Part shown: positions 37,137 through 46,150 of the stretch, in pieces
How positions within the stretch are numbered: position 1 is the first letter of the stretch
Layout: each line of letters opens with the position of its first letter
Assembly (NCBI GenBank): GCA_903822425.1
Contig: CAIJOY010000044.1
Location: 17,083 to 81,082, forward strand
Length of the DNA: 64,000 nt
From: an uncultured Actinomycetes bacterium
Lineage (GTDB): Bacteria > Actinomycetota > Actinomycetes > Nanopelagicales > Nanopelagicaceae
Direction of reading: 5' to 3'
Notes under the pieces: generated by a model
Databases searched by the model: none
What the model was told of the DNA's origin: nothing
The model's input: only the letters and a program-made list of their open reading frames with translations
Made by a program: the position numbers and the translations under genes

Positions 37137-37982
37137 ATGCGTTTAGCCCGCTTAGGAGATTTTGGAAAAGAAAGAGCTGCAGTTGTTATTAATGACCTCG
37201 AAGCAGTATTTGTTGATGATCTCATTGGTGACTGGAGCAGGACTGGATTAGAAAATGGGGCTCTGCAAAAAATCAAGACTGCCGATTTGACTTCGCGTCC
37301 CACGATTAAGATTTCCGATTACCGTTTAGGCTCACCTGTTGCGCGTCCCACAAAAGTAATTTGCGTTGGCTTGAATTATGCCCAGCATGCTGCAGAGACA
37401 GGGGCTACGCCGCCGGCCGAGCCGGTCGTTTTCATGAAAGCTCCAGATACAGTGATTGGTGGCTTTGATGACATCATCGTGCCTCCTCATTCGATAAAAA
37501 CTGATTACGAAGTAGAAATTTGCGTAGTTATTGGCAAGAACGCGTTGTACTTGAAATCACCTGAACAATCTCGCGAACATATCTTGGGATACACCATCTC
37601 CCAAGACGTCTCTGAACGCCACTGGCAGATTGAGCGCAGCGGACAATGGGTTAAGGGAAAATCTTTTCCATCTTTTAATCCGATGGGGCCTTGGATCGTT
37701 ACCGCAGATGCTCTAGACCCCACCGATATCAACCTTTGGTGCACCGTGGATGGAGAGATGCGTCAAAATTCTCGAACTTCAGACATGATTTTCGGGATTG
37801 ATCATTGCATCTGGTACATCAGCCAATTTATGGAACTCAAAGCTGGTGATGTCATTAATACCGGGACACCACAAGGTGTTGGTATGGGCTTTAAGCCCGA
37901 GAAGTACATTCTTGGGGGAGAAGTTGTTGAGACTGGGATCGAAGGCATCGGCAGGATCAAATCCACAGTGACTAACGCTTAA
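37137..37982 (+). CDS. Fumarylacetoacetate-hydrolase-family protein (2,4-diketo-3-deoxy-sugar-acid-hydrolase-like)
   Basis: KVICVGLNYAQHAAETG; DYEVEICVVIG; NTGTPQGVGMG. Confidence 0.88.
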   Translation: MRLARLGDFGKERAAVVINDLEAVFVDDLIGDWSRTGLENGALQKIKTADLTSRPTIKISDYRLGSPVARPTKVICVGLNYAQHAAETGATPPAEPVVFMKAPDTVIGGFDDIIVPPHSIKTDYEVEICVVIGKNALYLKSPEQSREHILGYTISQDVSERHWQIERSGQWVKGKSFPSFNPMGPWIVTADALDPTDINLWCTVDGEMRQNSRTSDMIFGIDHCIWYISQFMELKAGDVINTGTPQGVGMGFKPEKYILGGEVVETGIEGIGRIKSTVTNA

Positions 37983-39253
37983 AAGGGTTTGCTGAATACC
38001 GTTTCCTCTGTAGCTTCAAGTTCTAGCAGTCGATTCCACTTTGCGGTGCGTTCTGAACCATGTGTAGATCCCACCTTGATCTGCCCTGCATTCCACCCGG
38101 TGGCCAAATCAGCTAACCAAGAATCTTCACTCTCGCCTGAGCGAGCAGAAACTATTGTGCCTAGTCCACTGTATTGGGCTTGCGTTAAGACATCATGAGT
38201 AGATGTCACAAGTCCATTTTGATTAGGTTTGATTAAAATTGCATTCGCGCTCCTACCCTTGATACCTCTACTCAATCGGCGTGTGTTGGTAGTGAACAAG
38301 TCATCGCCGACAACTTGTATAGGGCGGGGTAGTTGCTTCATAAATAATTCCCATGAGTCCCAGTCGTCCTCGGCGAATGGATCTTCAATGGAAATAATCG
38401 GATGTGTGGCTACAAGTGCGAGTAATAGTTGGCTCCATTGCTCTGGGGTGTATTGCAACCCTTGACTACGAGATTCGTATTTTTCATCTTTATAGAACTG
38501 CGTCGCTGCGATATCCAGAGCAAGTGAGACATCAACTCTTGGATTGAGACCCACCGATTCGATGCAATGTGTGATGAACCCACAAGCCATATCTGAAGAA
38601 GCAAATGGAAGTCCCAAACCACCTTCATCTGCCACCAAGTTGGTCATAAATCCATCGGAGGCACCAAGTTCAGCAGCTTTCTCTCGAATAGCAGATACCC
38701 ACGTCAGCCCTTGAGCAAAAGTTTTTGCGCCATGTGGAATTACTAGGACATCTTGAATATCTAAAGCGCCAGCGGCATGTGCTCCACCTGAAAGAATATT
38801 GACCATGGGCATCGGAATTTTTAAGGCACCATGAGGTTGGTAAAACCGAGCGAGTGAAACCTTTCGTACATGAGCAGAAGCAATAGCACCTACTAGGGAG
38901 GTGGCTAGAGTTGCATTTGCGCCTAATATTTCATGCCGGGATGTTGAATCCAATTCATGCAAAATCGCATCAATTTTTTCAGAGTTGGGTTCAAGTTTGA
39001 GTAAGCGCGGGCGAATAATTTCGTTGATGTTGGATACCGCCTGGTGAACGCTTTTGCCGAGAAAGAGTTTTTCGCTTATTTCGGTTTCTCCATCACGAAG
39101 TTCAAGTGCTTCGTGCGCACCTGTAGATGCACCAGACGGAACTGTCGCTTTGTGAACTGAGCCATCACTTAACATCATGCGAGCACAAACCGTTGGGCGG
39201 CCTCGCGAATCTAGGACTTGGATGCCTTGAAAATTGCTGATAACGGTTGTCAT
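37979..39253 (-). CDS. Enolase paralog with altered active site
   Basis: Enolase-like along its length (DSRGRPTV, PSGASTGAHEALELRDG, SIEDPFAEDDW, VGDDLFTTN) but SARSGESED instead of SHRSGETED and DIQD instead of DIQE. Confidence 0.88.
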   Translation of the reverse strand: MTTVISNFQGIQVLDSRGRPTVCARMMLSDGSVHKATVPSGASTGAHEALELRDGETEISEKLFLGKSVHQAVSNINEIIRPRLLKLEPNSEKIDAILHELDSTSRHEILGANATLATSLVGAIASAHVRKVSLARFYQPHGALKIPMPMVNILSGGAHAAGALDIQDVLVIPHGAKTFAQGLTWVSAIREKAAELGASDGFMTNLVADEGGLGLPFASSDMACGFITHCIESVGLNPRVDVSLALDIAATQFYKDEKYESRSQGLQYTPEQWSQLLLALVATHPIISIEDPFAEDDWDSWELFMKQLPRPIQVVGDDLFTTNTRRLSRGIKGRSANAILIKPNQNGLVTSTHDVLTQAQYSGLGTIVSARSGESEDSWLADLATGWNAGQIKVGSTHGSERTAKWNRLLELEATEETVFSKPF

Positions 39254-40236
39254 GATTGAAAGAATACTTCACGTATGGATGGAGGATTTTGCAGCCGAAG
39301 AATTCTTAAGCAACGCTCACGAACTCTGTTTTGCCCCTGCCAATCAAGATATCCGGCAGGAGAGACTCCATCTACTCGGGCAAGAGCGATAGTTGCCAGG
39401 TGCCAAGCCAGAGAGGGATCTGGGCTGTGATAAGAATTTTGGTAGGCCGAGATAAATGAGGACGCACAGAGTGCAAGGCAATTGCGATCGCGGTCGTTAT
39501 CGAGATGCTCTTGCTTACACAAAAAATGCCCAAGCAAAAATGCCAAGTCAAAGACAGGATTTCCCGTGTGTGCCACTTCAAAGTCCAAGACGATCGCGTG
39601 ATTTTCGTGAGTAACTAAAATGTTTTTTGGCGAGAAATCTCCGTGAACAAGCGATGTCCTATTTCCCTCAAGTTCATCAATGAGCTTTTGTAGGAGAGGA
39701 GCTATGTCGGTATGAATTGGTGCTAGTGAACGGTAGAAAGGATTGATGCGCAGCTGTTCAAAAAGTTCATCTTCAATAAACTCATTCAAAAGCTCAGGAT
39801 TGGTACTGGAGGATTTGTGCCAACTTCCTACTGTCTCACCCAATTGATGAGCGACATCAGCTGAAATCTTTCCTGAAAGCAGATCCTCTTTCCAATTGGT
39901 GCATCTACTATCGGCTCGATCCAGGACTACCACGAATCGATCCGGATCTAAGTAGCGGAGCCGGGGAACCCTCTCTGGCGTAATTGCATGAAGGACGTCT
40001 AAAGCCCTGGCTTCAACGATTGCGCGCCTGGGGTCGGCCAACCACGTACTTTTCACTCGCAGTTGAGGTAAAGCTTGTTTGAGAACATACTCTTTGCCTT
40101 CAGCGCAAAGCGCGATCACTACATTGGAAACCCCGCCAGTGAGTAATTGGACATCGACTTTACTCGAGGAAGAAAATAATCCCTGTTCTATCACGTAAGC
40201 AGTTACGGAATTTTCATCCAGAAGTTCTGCTGTCAT
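39250..40236 (-). CDS. APH/choline-kinase-fold phosphotransferase
   Basis: LVHGDFSPKNILV and LDFEVAHTGNPVFDLAFLL catalytic motifs. Confidence 0.87.
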   Translation of the reverse strand: MTAELLDENSVTAYVIEQGLFSSSSKVDVQLLTGGVSNVVIALCAEGKEYVLKQALPQLRVKSTWLADPRRAIVEARALDVLHAITPERVPRLRYLDPDRFVVVLDRADSRCTNWKEDLLSGKISADVAHQLGETVGSWHKSSSTNPELLNEFIEDELFEQLRINPFYRSLAPIHTDIAPLLQKLIDELEGNRTSLVHGDFSPKNILVTHENHAIVLDFEVAHTGNPVFDLAFLLGHFLCKQEHLDNDRDRNCLALCASSFISAYQNSYHSPDPSLAWHLATIALARVDGVSPAGYLDWQGQNRVRERCLRILRLQNPPSIREVFFQS

Positions 40237-40240
40237 TGAT

Positions 40241-40915
40241 TTAAGGCAGATAAGTTATGGAATGAGCATTATCAACTAACAAACTTTGACCCGATATCGC
40301 GGTATTGAGATTGCTGCCCAACAGAAAAACACTGTTTCCAATGTCTTGCGGTGTTGGCAAATTTCCGACTGGGGTTGATTCGACTAAGTGCGCAAACTGC
40401 GCTGGATCTAGCGTTGCTGCTGTCATAGGAGATTCAACTACGCCCGGTAAAATACCGTTGACAAGGATTTGGTGAGATCGCCCTAGATCCACTGCTAGTG
40501 ATCGGACAAGTCCTCCAACTGCGGCCTTGGAGATGGTGTAAGCCAATTTTTCTTTGCGAGTAAAAATTTCCGCTAGGGAACTCAAGATCACAACCTTGCC
40601 TTTTTTGGCGATGGCGTTGGCTTCCATGAGGTGCTTGATTTGATCCACAATAAAACCAACATTTGCTTCAAATATATTGGTTACTTGTTCATGGGTGGTT
40701 GCAGAGTAAGACCCGTTCATATTTGCACCTTGAGCGAATACGACAGCATCGAAAACATGGGGAAATTCTTCATTTGGCATGAGAATTTCGTTGGGCAAGG
40801 ATGAGCTTTTGCGCACCATGGGAAAAACTTCCCACCCATGAGAGGTGTAAACAGATGCAATGCCACTACCGAGTGCACCAGTAGCGCCGTAGAGAAGAAC
40901 TCTAAATTTACTCAT
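40241..40915 (-). CDS. Short-chain dehydrogenase/reductase-like
   Basis: YGATGALGSGIASVYTSHGWEVF; YTISKAAVGGLVRSLAVDLG. Confidence 0.85.
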   Translation of the reverse strand: MSKFRVLLYGATGALGSGIASVYTSHGWEVFPMVRKSSSLPNEILMPNEEFPHVFDAVVFAQGANMNGSYSATTHEQVTNIFEANVGFIVDQIKHLMEANAIAKKGKVVILSSLAEIFTRKEKLAYTISKAAVGGLVRSLAVDLGRSHQILVNGILPGVVESPMTAATLDPAQFAHLVESTPVGNLPTPQDIGNSVFLLGSNLNTAISGQSLLVDNAHSITYLP

Positions 40916-40917
40916 GC

Positions 40918-41847
40918 TTATTTCTCGTAACCATAGCGAGTGAGCATGGAGTGTCCTATTGACGCGCGGCGAACGCGTTCGCGGCCAGTGGATTCGACCA
41001 ATCCTTGGATATGCGCGCCAGAAGGGTAGAGACCGGGAGAGTTGCGGACAGTAAATTTCAAGTAGATAGGTGCGGCTACCCGAACTAAGTCAGGCACTTC
41101 ATAGTGGCGAACTACGCCACCAAAATCATCTGGCCCTTCAACGTAGATATCTAGCGGGACATCGACTTGAGCGCGAATTGCAGCAATGTGTTGAAGAGAG
41201 AGGTCTGTAGCAAGGTTGAGCGTGGAGGCGCCAAGATCTACCAAAGCTTGAGCGGTTGCGGGATTGGTGCACGGCATTGCAACGGAGGTTTTGAGAATGA
41301 AATCTTTTGGTAAATCACCGTTTGCCTTGGCTTCACCTAATACTTTAAGCAAACCGATGTCTCCTACGAGAACTGAACGAAGGCCAAGTGATGCCGCGTG
41401 AAGAACATCTTCCACTGCGTAGCGAAGTTGATCTGCTCCTCGAAGTGTAGGTGAGGCAACACCGCCAGCAGATGAGAGAGGTTGTTTTCCAATATCCCAC
41501 GCAGCGCGAGGTCCTACGAACAGACACACTTCGAGTTTGTTGGTTTCTCCAAGTTCGATCATCTCGATGATCTCTGAATCGGTTTGCATCATGATGCCCG
41601 AACCTTGCGAGATTCGGTGGAAGGTGAGTGTACGTTTTTTAGCCTCGTCCAAAATTGCGCGAAAAGCTGCAGGGCCTTCTACTGAAGGGATTTCGATTTT
41701 CCATCGTGATCCATCTGGAAACCGTTTGGCAGATTCAGGGATTCCATCTGCGTCCTGGGTTTGAATCGATTGCTTGCTGAGGAGTGCAATGGATTTTGAC
41801 ATGGGACCACTGGAATCTCGAGTTGAAGGCCAACCTTGTTCGCTCAC
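40918..41847 (-). CDS. U32-peptidase-like / TIM-barrel protein
   Basis: IEIPSVEGPAAFRAILDEAKKR, TFHRISQGSGIMM, VYLKFTVRN..., resembling U32-type actinobacterial proteins; recognition by eye only. Confidence 0.6.
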   Translation of the reverse strand: MSEQGWPSTRDSSGPMSKSIALLSKQSIQTQDADGIPESAKRFPDGSRWKIEIPSVEGPAAFRAILDEAKKRTLTFHRISQGSGIMMQTDSEIIEMIELGETNKLEVCLFVGPRAAWDIGKQPLSSAGGVASPTLRGADQLRYAVEDVLHAASLGLRSVLVGDIGLLKVLGEAKANGDLPKDFILKTSVAMPCTNPATAQALVDLGASTLNLATDLSLQHIAAIRAQVDVPLDIYVEGPDDFGGVVRHYEVPDLVRVAAPIYLKFTVRNSPGLYPSGAHIQGLVESTGRERVRRASIGHSMLTRYGYEK

Positions 41848-41949: not shown

Positions 41950-42714
41950 TTGGAATTCATGGTCGACAAGAGAGATTTTGCCGGGCAAGTTGTCGTGGTT
42001 GTTGGGGCCGGCAACGGAATTGGTCGCGCAACGGTAGGTCTGTTGAAAGAACGTGGCGCGCGCGTGATTGCTTTTGATAACAATGGCGAAGCACTCAAGG
42101 CTCTTCGTGCAGAGTTCTCATTAGATGAGACGCAAATTTCCACTCTTGATGTTTCTGATGAAGAGCAAGTTCGCGAGAGCATCGCTCAGGTGCTGGCGCA
42201 AGAAAAGCGGATAGATGCGCTAGTCAACAGTGCAGGCATGACTGGTCCTACCAATCGCAAATTAGAGGAAGTGCTCTGGTCTGAGTTTGAGAAGACTTTA
42301 CGTGTAAACCTTTTTGGGGCAATCTGGTTAACGCAACAGGTATTGCCCATTATGAAAGCCCAGAAATATGGTCGAATCGTTCACGTTACGTCGATTGCTG
42401 GCAAAGAAGGAAATCCTGGTATGGCTCCTTACAACACATCTAAGTCTGGGATGATTGGTTTTGTTAAAGGAATTGCTAAGGAAGTTGCTCCGGAGGGGAT
42501 TACGATCAACGCAGTTGCCCCGGCTGTTATACGAACTCCGATGAACGCCGAAACGAGCGAGGAAACTTTAAAGTACATGATTGCTCGGATTCCAATGGGA
42601 CGAGTAGGCGAAGCTGAAGAAGTAGCTGAAACTATTTGTTTTGCAGCATCTCGTGCTTGTTCGTTTACAACCGGATTTACTTTCGATACTTCAGGTGGAC
42701 GCGCTACGTACTAA
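41950..42714 (+). CDS. Short-chain dehydrogenase/reductase (FabG / ketodeoxy-sugar-acid-dehydrogenase-like)
   Basis: VVGAGNGIGRATVGLLKERG; NSAGMTG; YNTSKSGMIGFVKGIAKEVA. Confidence 0.9.
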   Translation: MEFMVDKRDFAGQVVVVVGAGNGIGRATVGLLKERGARVIAFDNNGEALKALRAEFSLDETQISTLDVSDEEQVRESIAQVLAQEKRIDALVNSAGMTGPTNRKLEEVLWSEFEKTLRVNLFGAIWLTQQVLPIMKAQKYGRIVHVTSIAGKEGNPGMAPYNTSKSGMIGFVKGIAKEVAPEGITINAVAPAVIRTPMNAETSEETLKYMIARIPMGRVGEAEEVAETICFAASRACSFTTGFTFDTSGGRATY

Positions 42715-43476
42715 CTGTTGCAGGCCAGCGACAATCTGAGCAAGTCCACAAGTTGGTGTAAGTACGTCATCCAGGAATGTATCGGCGCGAATTTCCATCA
42801 TGATCGCCTCTACTCGTGCATCCTTTTCATAATGTTTCAGAGGAACATAAGTTCCAGAATATGGTTGATTTTCGACGATATCTCCGATGAAGGCGAAGGC
42901 GCTTCGGGCAGATTCATATAGGGATCGAGAAGTATGGAAAGGATCAGTTCCTATGCAAATAGCAGGGCGTAGATCATCTTTGTTCATAGAGTTGGCATGT
43001 GCAATCGGGCGGTAGGAATGCACATCAATGATGAGGCATCTATTTAGCGCTAGGAGACGCTCATTGACAAGCGCTTCAATGGCCAAGGCGTATGGATGAA
43101 AATATTTATCTAGTAATTCTTGGTCGAATTCAGAAGTTCGCAGTTTAAGGCCATGTGAATTCTTGTGATAAACCGCGCCCATTCCTACCGAATTCATTGC
43201 TTCTCGATCATCCGGAAAGCGCTCTGGATCGATAACCAGTCGGGAGAGTTCATTGATAAATATCCACGGTTGTTTGCCCGCGATCTTGGCAGATTCGTAG
43301 GCGAGTTGGTCTGTATGAGAATCAGTCATTTCATCGAGTTCTAGTTTGAGTTGGGCGTCATCGAGCAATATCCCGGTGCGTACCCTCGATGGAATCTCAC
43401 GGGAAGAATGAGGAACATGCAAAATTACATGAGAATCAGGATCCCCTGGAATTATCTTGAAGGAGCTCACGGGCAC
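42691..43476 (-). CDS. N-formylglutamate amidohydrolase family protein
   Basis: HVPHSSREIPSRVR; DSHTDQLAYESA; RLVIDPERFPDDREAMNSVGMGAVYHKN; IDVHSYRP. Confidence 0.88.
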   Translation of the reverse strand: MPVSSFKIIPGDPDSHVILHVPHSSREIPSRVRTGILLDDAQLKLELDEMTDSHTDQLAYESAKIAGKQPWIFINELSRLVIDPERFPDDREAMNSVGMGAVYHKNSHGLKLRTSEFDQELLDKYFHPYALAIEALVNERLLALNRCLIIDVHSYRPIAHANSMNKDDLRPAICIGTDPFHTSRSLYESARSAFAFIGDIVENQPYSGTYVPLKHYEKDARVEAIMMEIRADTFLDDVLTPTCGLAQIVAGLQQLVRSAST

Positions 43477-43478
43477 AA

Positions 43479-44228
43479 TTACAAACGACCGGCCTCATGA
43501 ACGCGCTTGAGGAAGTCTTGAGTTCGTGGATCAGTAGGGTTTTCTAGAACTCTCGATGGCGGGCCATATTCCACAATTCTTCCTTGATGCAGAAAACAAA
43601 CTTCATCGGCAACTTGTTTGGCAAAACCCATTTCATGAGTGGCAATAACCATCGTCATGCCTTCATGTTTAAGATCACGCACGGTGCTGAGAACTTCATT
43701 GACTAAAACTGGATCCAGAGCCGAGGTGACTTCATCTAAAAGTAGAAGGCGTGGTTTCAGAGCGAGGGATCTAATGATGGCAACGCGTTGTTGTTGACCA
43801 CCGCTGAGGCGATCCGGATATTGATCGGCTTTATCACTGAGGCCAAATCGAATAAGAAGTTCTTTAGCTTGTTCGCGCGCTTGTTCGCGAGAGAGTCCTT
43901 GTACACGGATGGGAGCCAGGGTGATGTTTTCTATTACGCTCATATGAGGGAAGAGATTGAAAGATTGAAAGACCATACCTAATTTGCGTCGTACTTCATC
44001 AGAGTTGACTCGGGGATCACTAATTTCAATACCATCAAGCTTGATCACTCCGTCATCAATACCATCAAGCAAGTTGATGCATCGCAGCAAGGTGGATTTC
44101 CCAGAACCAGAAGCACCAATAAACACGGTTGCTGTATGTACCGGAACATCTATCGAAATATCTTGGAGCACAACGTCTTTGCCGAAGGATTTTCGAAGAT
44201 TCTCAATCGCAAGAACTGGAGTTGTCAT
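43479..44228 (-). CDS. Polar amino-acid ABC transporter ATP-binding protein
   Basis: GASGSGKSTLLRCIN, LSGGQQQRVAI, LLLDEVTSALDP. Confidence 0.96.
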   Translation of the reverse strand: MTTPVLAIENLRKSFGKDVVLQDISIDVPVHTATVFIGASGSGKSTLLRCINLLDGIDDGVIKLDGIEISDPRVNSDEVRRKLGMVFQSFNLFPHMSVIENITLAPIRVQGLSREQAREQAKELLIRFGLSDKADQYPDRLSGGQQQRVAIIRSLALKPRLLLLDEVTSALDPVLVNEVLSTVRDLKHEGMTMVIATHEMGFAKQVADEVCFLHQGRIVEYGPPSRVLENPTDPRTQDFLKRVHEAGRL

Positions 44229-45124
44229 GCTAAACCTTGAGCATTCTGGCGCTGAATCGCTTTGCGCATTGTGTGATCTGTAAATCGAGTCAGAGGCACA
44301 GTTAATAGAAGAAAGAGCAAAGCAGCCATGACGTAGGGGGTGTAATTGAAACTTCGACTGCTGGAAATTTGTGCGGCACGAACGGCATCGGTAACGCCAA
44401 GAATTGAAACCAAACCTGTGTCTTTTATAAGGGAAACCAAGTCATTGAGGAGTGGGGGAGTCACGCGACGAAGGGCCTGCGGCAACACCACATGACGCAA
44501 CGTTTGAAAGTTTGTGAGTCCTAATGAGCGAGCAGCAGCCCGCTGACTTGGGTGGACAGTAAGGATTCCGCTGCGAAGTACTTCTGCCACATAAGCTGAG
44601 TAAGTGATGATGACGGCAGTTGTTCCTAGGACCATGACATTGCGCGTGAGCCCCGGAAGACGTAGTGCCGGAATTCCAAAACCAACGAGCAAAATAATGA
44701 GCAACATAGGTACGCCACGAAAAACATCTACATAGACAGTGGCAAGAAGTCGAAATGGAGTGAGAGCTGGAGACCGTGAAGTTCGAGTAAGAGCCAAAAT
44801 TAATCCAAAAACGCTCACGCAGGATGCTGCGATCACAGTGAGCAAGATGTTAGTCGTGAACCCGAGAATAACTTTAGGCAGAATTTCAAAACCGTAAGCC
44901 CATGCGAAAAAAGTATCGGTCAAACTTTTCCAGCCAGGAGAAGTTACAAGAACTGCAGCCAAAGTTCCCAGTACCAAAAAGCTCGAGATTGTTGCGATCA
45001 TAATGTTCCGACGGTTTTGGTCGGATCTAATTTTGCGACGTTGAAGTTCTAGATTGCTAGGTTTCCACAAGGAAGAGGCGCGACCTCCTTCATCAGAGGC
45101 CGCGCCACCTTCTTGTTCAGTCAT
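44225..45124 (-). CDS. Polar amino-acid ABC transporter permease
   Basis: AYVAEVLRSGILTVHPSQRAAARSLGLTNFQTLRHVVLPQALRRVTPPL EAA loop. Confidence 0.95.
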   Translation of the reverse strand: MTEQEGGAASDEGGRASSLWKPSNLELQRRKIRSDQNRRNIMIATISSFLVLGTLAAVLVTSPGWKSLTDTFFAWAYGFEILPKVILGFTTNILLTVIAASCVSVFGLILALTRTSRSPALTPFRLLATVYVDVFRGVPMLLIILLVGFGIPALRLPGLTRNVMVLGTTAVIITYSAYVAEVLRSGILTVHPSQRAAARSLGLTNFQTLRHVVLPQALRRVTPPLLNDLVSLIKDTGLVSILGVTDAVRAAQISSSRSFNYTPYVMAALLFLLLTVPLTRFTDHTMRKAIQRQNAQGLA

Positions 45125-45159
45125 TCGTTTTCCATCAGGTAGATGAGACGATTTTCAAA

Positions 45160-46020
45160 TTACTTGAGAACCGGAGCTCCAGCCGCTGTTGTCAGCCACT
45201 TGTCTTGAATGGTTTGCAATTCTCCGCTTGTGCGGATTGCATCGAGAGCTTGAGTTACGCATGCAGTGATTGGGCTGTCTTTTGCAAGCAAGAGTCCAGC
45301 ACCTTGATCATTTGAGTCACGGTTTTCAATCTGGCCAACAATGATTCCGTTGGTGACTTCAGCAGCCGATAGATAGAAGGCAGTTGGGAGGTCTACAACT
45401 AAGCCATCAATCTGACCATTTTTTAACGCAGCAACTGCTGCAGCGTTGTCGTTGAAAACTTGAGCTTTCAGACCCAGTTGAACTTCAATAGTGTCCAAAG
45501 AAGTTGAACCAACAGCAGCTCCCAATTTCGCACCTTTCAAGCCAGCAAGAGTCGTAACGCCTTCAATCTTGCTTCCCTTTGCAGAGACGATCGCCTGATT
45601 GGAGAAATAGTAAGCACTTGAGAAGTCAACAACCTTTGCGCGATCGGCTGTAATTGAGTATTGCTGAATGTTGAAATCGAAAGTTTTTGGTCCAGGTGTA
45701 ATCGCAGAATCAAATGTTGTACGAACCCATGTGACTGCGGAATTTTCGTACCCAAGTTGCTTGGCGACTGCATAAGCAACTGCTGCTTCAAAGCCCTCGC
45801 CAGATTCTGGCTTGTCGTTCAGAACCCATGGTTCATATGCTGGCTCGCCAGTTGCGATTGTCAGTACACCTGGTGTGAGAGTCTGGAGAGAAGCTGGTGC
45901 ACAACTTGTTGTATCAGTTGCAGAACTAGCAGTGTTAGTTTCTGCTTTGGCGCATGATGAAAGCCCTAGCGCAAGAAGTACGGTGACCGCCGCGAGGGTA
46001 AGAGTTTTATTGGTTTTCAT
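45160..46020 (-). CDS. Amino-acid ABC transporter substrate-binding lipoprotein
   Basis: Lipobox LGLSSCAKA; SBP family 3 architecture. Confidence 0.94.
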   Translation of the reverse strand: MKTNKTLTLAAVTVLLALGLSSCAKAETNTASSATDTTSCAPASLQTLTPGVLTIATGEPAYEPWVLNDKPESGEGFEAAVAYAVAKQLGYENSAVTWVRTTFDSAITPGPKTFDFNIQQYSITADRAKVVDFSSAYYFSNQAIVSAKGSKIEGVTTLAGLKGAKLGAAVGSTSLDTIEVQLGLKAQVFNDNAAAVAALKNGQIDGLVVDLPTAFYLSAAEVTNGIIVGQIENRDSNDQGAGLLLAKDSPITACVTQALDAIRTSGELQTIQDKWLTTAAGAPVLK

Positions 46021-46065
46021 GAGATACCTTTCCGATTTTCGTCGCTTGCCATAACGATTGCTATG

Positions 46066-46150
46066 GCCTGGTCTTCACCCGGAGCACCCCACCGCGATGG
46101 AGGGTTGCCGATCAGCAAGCCGGGGCTATGTGCTGATACTCATGACCTGT
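46066..46150 (-). promoter_or_regulatory. SAM-IV riboswitch
   Basis: Minus strand GGTCATGAGTATCAGCACATAGCCCCGGCTTGCTGATCGGCAACCCTCCATCGCGGTGGGGTGCTCCGGGTGAAGACCAGG matches the remembered actinobacterial SAM-IV consensus, including closing GGTC/GACC and a covarying ATCAGC/GCTGAT stem. Confidence 0.9.

Follow-up and report, generated by a model that had tools for sequence, protein, structure and literature searches.

A SAM-IV riboswitch-led operon joining a polar amino acid importer to a non-HutG PF05013 hydrolase in Nanopelagicaceae: a candidate system for sulfur-amino-acid scavenging

In a DNA stretch of 64,000 nucleotides (nt) from an uncultured Nanopelagicaceae bacterium (contig CAIJOY010000044.1; the whole stretch is called the window below), a gene of the N-formylglutamate amidohydrolase (FGase) family, PF05013, follows three transporter genes and an S-adenosylmethionine (SAM) riboswitch of class SAM-IV. 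The locus raises the question of what an enzyme from the family of HutG, the N-formylglutamate deformylase of histidine degradation, does behind a SAM-sensing leader. The answer favoured here, with slightly better than even confidence, is that the genes form a SAM-repressed operon for scavenging sulfur amino acids, its amide hydrolase, distinct from HutG, releasing methionine or a related amino acid from a blocked form. The features concerned are as follows, by position in the window.

46037..46147, minus strand: SAM-IV riboswitch aptamer (RF00634; Rfam, 103.6 bits, E = 5.8e-18).
46018..46033, minus strand: Shine-Dalgarno sequence GGAAAGG (46033-46027) and ATG (46020-46018) of the substrate-binding protein (SBP) gene, read from the sequence.
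45160..46020, minus strand: PAAT-family (polar amino acid) substrate-binding lipoprotein, SBP_bac_3, 286 amino acids (PF00497, E = 1.4e-22; PDB relatives; conservation).
44225..45124, minus strand: PAAT permease, 299 amino acids (PF00528, E = 1.3e-20; TIGR01726, HEQRo_perm_3TM, above its cut-off).
43479..44228, minus strand: PAAT ATPase, GlnQ-like, 249 amino acids (PF00005, E = 4.4e-32).
42691..43476, minus strand: amide hydrolase of the PF05013 (FGase) family, 261 amino acids, GTG start (PF05013, E = 1.8e-38).
41950..42714, plus strand: convergent short-chain dehydrogenase/reductase (SDR) gene, the operon boundary and outside the system (PF13561).

The SBP_bac_3 protein, the BPD_transp_1 permease of HEQRo type and the GlnQ-like ATPase, encoded in one operon, make up a PAAT importer of the ATP-binding cassette class. 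The genes are closely packed, with a gap of 35 nt between the SBP and permease genes, an overlap of 4 nt between the permease and ATPase genes, and 2 nt between the ATPase stop codon and the GTG of the FGase gene. A terminator scan revealed no terminator-like hairpin between the operon genes; the number of terminator-like sites was 5, compared with 3.9 expected from shuffled sequences, and of those on the coding strand the best (45106-45077, with a stem of 12 bp) falls inside the reading frame of the permease and lacks a clean T run. A convincing internal promoter was not found in the scan either (2 sites, against 4.6 expected from shuffles). At the distal end, the 3' end of the SDR gene overlaps that of the FGase gene by 24 nt.

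The riboswitch match is full length (model positions 1-116 of 116), well above the gathering score of 38, and is the only Rfam match within the 64 kb of the window. With its end at 46037, the aptamer stops 3 nt short of the Shine-Dalgarno sequence and about 16 nt short of the ATG. Because this leaves no space for a terminator between aptamer and Shine-Dalgarno sequence, control of SBP translation start is the likely output, and would be passed on to the later genes by coupling. Folding of the leader by itself was uninformative (z score, -1.1), and the position of the aptamer beside the Shine-Dalgarno sequence is no more than suggestive of SAM binding and repression of the downstream genes. The same genome also has SAM-IV ahead of metX.

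Conservation was followed in 201 genomes of the same family and in an order sample of 296. Among the relatives that have names are Candidatus Nanopelagicaceae and the cultured isolate IMCC26077 (CP015606), which carries the operon (L093/L137). SAM-IV was detected in 191 of the family genomes, and PF05013 was patchy, occurring in 34 of them (9 of 17 genera) and in 41 of the 296 genomes of the order sample. Where the contig was long enough, the FGase gene was found directly behind the SBP-permease-ATPase genes in 38 of 39 loci, the window included, from many genera, and in the relatives the spacing from ATPase stop to FGase was nearly always -4 to +3 nt. FGase and the transporter diverge in step (correlation of protein distances, r = 0.79-0.85; SBP-permease, r = 0.86), which argues that the block was inherited as a unit. 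A SAM-IV riboswitch stood just ahead of the SBP gene in about 19 of 31 complete blocks. Moreover, in eleven loci SAM-IV-metY-metX, or a SAM-IV at the contig end, lay directly downstream of FGase, the identities of MetY and MetX being confirmed by NCBIfam. These results bear out a preliminary description of the window, which had placed the four genes in one operon behind the leader, had linked them to the SAM/methionine regulon, and had named lack of conservation in relatives as a ground for refutation, which does not apply.

Other leaders were observed in two genera. In four loci of genus g16 (L085, L257, L259 and L260) SAM-IV was absent and a short conserved leader, GCCNAGCCCACNANCGAAAGGCAYG, lay just ahead of the SBP ATG. 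As a candidate for a new methionine RNA it was discarded, since the pattern occurred once per genome, at this locus only, and hence defined no regulon. In eight loci of genus g15 (L070, L075, L077, L080, L082, L087, L088 and L092) SAM-IV was also absent ahead of the SBP gene, and a conserved hairpin, TTCCCGAATTCGGGGAA, followed a TTTAGAAT box 60-100 nt before the SBP ATG. Where the contig continues, SAM-IV-metY-metX is located downstream of FGase in these g15 loci.

The hydrolase is a separable, accessory module that is absent in places where the transporter is kept. This follows from a genome of the same genus (locus L277; 99% complete, no FGase) with the same synteny but without the hydrolase: SAM-IV is followed by the SBP (80%), permease (83%) and ATPase (86%) genes and, directly after the ATPase gene, by what is apparently the same convergent SDR neighbour. 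Three further loci (L098, L099 and L102) had the order SAM-IV-transporter-SAM-IV-metX, again without FGase. The reverse case was seen in L090 (G049:C86), where the transporter is deleted, the SBP signal peptide survives as a remnant, and SAM-IV directly precedes an intact FGase gene; this may be a natural deletion or, because the source is a metagenome assembly, a misassembly. In L097 (G086:C43; reversed orientation, 28-140 and 284-397) two SAM-IV aptamers lie in tandem, about 143 nt apart, ahead of metX, as though an intervening transporter had been lost, which would make them a possible tandem riboswitch formed by gene loss.

The hydrolase is a member of PF05013 (133.3 bits; gathering score, 28.9). 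Its predicted structure, with a pLDDT (a measure of model confidence) of 86.5, gave 2q7s and 2odf as best fold matches, followed by poly-gamma-glutamate hydrolases. Against TIGR02017, the HutG equivalog model, it scored 33 bits (cut-off, 278.75), compared with 314-398 bits for HutGs from hut operons, to which it is 16-23% identical. Residues P22, H23, T51, D52, R79, D83, R86, D151, H153, S154, G208 and E228 are conserved in both groups, and those of catalytic type (P22, H23, D52, R79, D83, R86, D151, H153 and E228) are kept in the window protein. In the alignment, the HutG motifs IRSxxPRLFEG and NGRFxGGxxTRHYG are replaced throughout the window subfamily by HSYRxxxH...RPxxCIGTDxFHT and NxPYxGTYVPL, and after the catalytic-type Glu an ExR replaces the HutG residues. 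Since the core residues common to HutG are kept and the pocket motifs differ, the alignment identifies the protein as belonging to a distinct, active-looking, non-HutG subfamily of PF05013. An attempt to read a non-acidic substrate from the cationic residues of the HutG pocket (TRHYG, replaced by a VPL motif) was dropped, as Arg230 is gained beside Glu228 and the direction of specificity could be either.

The SBP groups with polar amino acid SBPs by sequence and fold matches, and the best NCBIfam model for the ATPase was GlnQ (300 bits, with 379 required). Arg127, Ser122 and Asp210 of the SBP are invariant, and Arg127 and Asp210 were found in the alignment in all 32 orthologues, whether FGase-bearing or not. 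We take the Arg/acidic pair of polar amino acid SBPs, here Arg127 and Asp210, to hold a free alpha-amino acid head group. When aligned with 6h30, Asp210 falls on chain residues 160 and 393, which an implied constant offset of 24 equates with E184 and D417 of GlnPQ; in this family, residues of this type hold the alpha-amino group of the ligand. The GlnPQ mutants E184W and D417F showed no ligand binding (PMC8025302). Because the SBP keeps Arg127 and Asp210, a ligand whose alpha-amino acid head group is free would be favoured over an N-formyl or N-acyl amino acid. The argument does not settle the matter, given that opine-type SBPs (SocA), which share this fold, take N-substituted amino acids. Reading the ligand from the predicted SBP structure was likewise given up as not decisive, the nearest folds being those of polar amino acid and opine SBPs.

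Taken together, a route of the following kind is proposed. In its favour are the full-length aptamer beside the SBP start, the conserved linkage and matched divergence of FGase and transporter, the adjoining SAM-IV-metY-metX genes, the position of SAM-IV before FGase in L090, the retained fold and catalytic-type residues, and a pneumococcal analogue described below. At low SAM the SAM-IV leader would leave the ribosome-binding site of the SBP gene free, and the tightly coupled genes would be made. The substrate then taken up by the PAAT importer would carry a free alpha-amino acid head group and would most likely be methionine or a sulfur compound so equipped. In the cytosol, the PF05013 enzyme would cut an amide bond, freeing methionine or another sulfur amino acid from an N-formyl or N-acyl form or from a gamma-glutamyl form. 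As an accessory, the hydrolase would extend the salvage or bring it to completion, and could disappear from a locus that keeps its transporter.

The preliminary description had proposed a scheme in which methionine enters through this transporter in N-formyl or N-acyl form and is then deacylated by FGase. The conserved coupling of importer and amide hydrolase agrees with this, as does the presence of SocA-type PAAT SBPs, which bind N-substituted amino acids, among the nearest folds. However, retention by the SBP of the Arg and Asp expected for a free head group weakens the idea: Arg127, Ser122 and Asp210 are invariant, and Asp210, aligned with GlnPQ E184/D417, would find no partner in a neutral N-acyl group. 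L277, L098, L099 and L102 also retain this transporter without having FGase, and we regard the scheme as unlikely.

A slightly lower probability is given to import of a gamma-glutamyl compound (glutathione-like, or gamma-Glu-Met/Cys), with the SBP holding the glutamyl head and FGase cutting the gamma-amide. Such a ligand would suit the head-group residues, and poly-gamma-glutamate hydrolases are the next fold neighbours after the FGase family, but that match is remote (3a9l, E = 5e-6, 10% identity) and we know of no PF05013 enzyme with gamma-glutamyl amide activity. The pneumococcal methionine regulon includes predicted glutathione-binding SBPs (PMC5359408), although the best matches listed for the window SBP, by sequence or by fold, included none of this type.

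An ordinary HutG, lying here by chance, is improbable. Membership of PF05013 would fit such an enzyme, and the genome does contain hutU-hutI-hutH (contig C32), so that the earlier statement that no hut genes are visible holds for the window and fails for the genome. The hut genes, however, adjoin an arginase-family formimidoylglutamase (PF00491, E = 6e-55; TIGR01227, 158 bits, under the cut-off of 229). Formimidoylglutamases of arginase type convert formiminoglutamate to glutamate and formamide, and thereby bypass N-formylglutamate. PF05013 and hutU did not co-occur across the 201 genomes (hutU in 16 of 34 genomes with and 59 of 167 without PF05013; Fisher p = 0.24), and 18 of the 34 FGase-bearing genomes had no hutU, among them the near-complete G009, G017 and G019. 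No genomic tie of FGase to hut genes that would require a HutG was thus found, and the subfamily has neither the TIGR02017 score nor the motifs IRSxxPRLF and NGRFxGGxxTRHYG. A role in histidine degradation, which had been doubted from the outset, was therefore rejected as a likely one. The hut cluster itself (L272, 4241-7125 and 7164-12451) has the arginase-type gene in convergent orientation and a TldD/PmbA-like pair in divergent orientation.

O-acetylhomoserine, the product of MetX, may turn spontaneously into N-acetylhomoserine by an O-to-N shift, and repair of this metabolite by deacetylation, which the metY-metX neighbourhood of 11 Nanopelagicaceae and three Streptomyces loci might suggest, is very improbable, given that the window and about 20 other loci pair FGase with the transporter and not with metX, and that a literature search for N-acetylhomoserine found nothing.

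Several observations weigh against the scavenging operon. Adjacency by itself does not prove a shared pathway, and about 12 operons (eight in g15, four in g16) have no SAM-IV ahead of the SBP gene. Members of the same FGase subfamily (45-57% identity) are found in Streptomyces, Nocardia, Fodinicola, Rhodococcus and others, and the neighbours of the Streptomyces and Rhodococcus enzymes, some of them on Rhodococcus plasmids, are mostly unrelated. The separate gene order metY-metX-FGase, in one direction, of three Streptomyces loci (L144, L154 and L250) speaks for a methionine link, but these cases probably represent one event.

Outside the family, no linkage of SAM-IV with FGase was detected in the 12 outgroup loci scanned with Rfam, and a SAM riboswitch match was absent from the two of the three Streptomyces metY-metX-FGase loci that were tested. 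The subfamily is common on large Rhodococcus plasmids (L279, L280 and others), among hypothetical or unannotated genes; because many of these plasmids carry it in such surroundings, a role in methionine metabolism cannot be claimed for the subfamily as a whole. On several of them the gene after FGase encodes a conserved protein, about 374 amino acids long, that has no Pfam match. It is a tentative proposal, held with less than even confidence, that the actinobacterial PF05013 subfamily with the motifs VIDPERFPDxRE and NxPYxGTYVPL is a sulfur-amino-acid amide hydrolase (acting, for example, on N-formyl- or N-acyl-methionine or gamma-glutamyl-methionine) and forms part of an uptake operon that SAM-IV controls in abundant freshwater bacteria.

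Under the favoured reading, a function open to testing can be assigned to an enzyme subfamily whose default database label is N-formylglutamate amidohydrolase. The reading further suggests that freshwater actinobacteria with reduced genomes and very high abundance salvage sulfur amino acids from blocked forms and keep this salvage under SAM control. The window and L277 form a natural presence/absence pair that permits a clean comparison, and activity on N-formyl-Met or on gamma-glutamyl sulfur compounds, if true, would raise the interest of the finding.

Elsewhere in the window, a tight block of four genes on the minus strand (37979-41847) encodes a protein with a U32-peptidase-like match, an SDR, an APH-type kinase and a second enolase-like protein, and resembles a small catabolic operon.

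Compared with known systems, the window hydrolase has its Pfam family, fold and core polar residues in common with HutG (TIGR02017), but fails the curated cut-off, has other pocket motifs and shows no link to hut genes. Among solved structures, 2q7s (Ralstonia) and 2odf (Agrobacterium Atu2144) come nearest to it in sequence profile and in fold, at about 15% identity; they are titled N-formylglutamate amidohydrolase and hypothetical protein, respectively, and the search outputs list no measured activity for either. In salvage operons for sulfur compounds of the ytm/snd type in B. subtilis, a PAAT importer is accompanied by amide hydrolases that act on N-acetylated sulfur compounds; their hydrolase family and regulator differ from those of the window operon.

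Control of metX/metY by SAM-IV in Actinomycetales is already known (PMC4239095). The window shares the riboswitch class with this regulon, and the blocks of its relatives adjoin SAM-IV-metY-metX, but here SAM-IV precedes a PAAT importer and an amide hydrolase. Literature searches (SAM-IV with N-formylglutamate; N-formylmethionine with amidohydrolase; N-acetylhomoserine) found no paper joining SAM-IV with a PF05013 hydrolase, which agrees with the earlier impression that the arrangement was undescribed, although such a search does not prove that none exists.

By analogy, the closest known arrangement is the metQ-hmrB-metNP operon of Streptococcus pneumoniae, also a methionine-responsive importer operon with an amide hydrolase gene. 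It contains a predicted N-acyl-amino-acid amidohydrolase, and its expression rises without methionine (PMC5359408). Read from the genes alone, the window operon fits this type in anatomy and conservation, apart from the dozen or so relatives without an upstream SAM-IV. The components differ: the pneumococcal operon has a MetQNP importer, an M20-family hydrolase and the protein regulator CmhR, whereas the window operon has a PAAT importer, a PF05013 hydrolase and a SAM-IV RNA.

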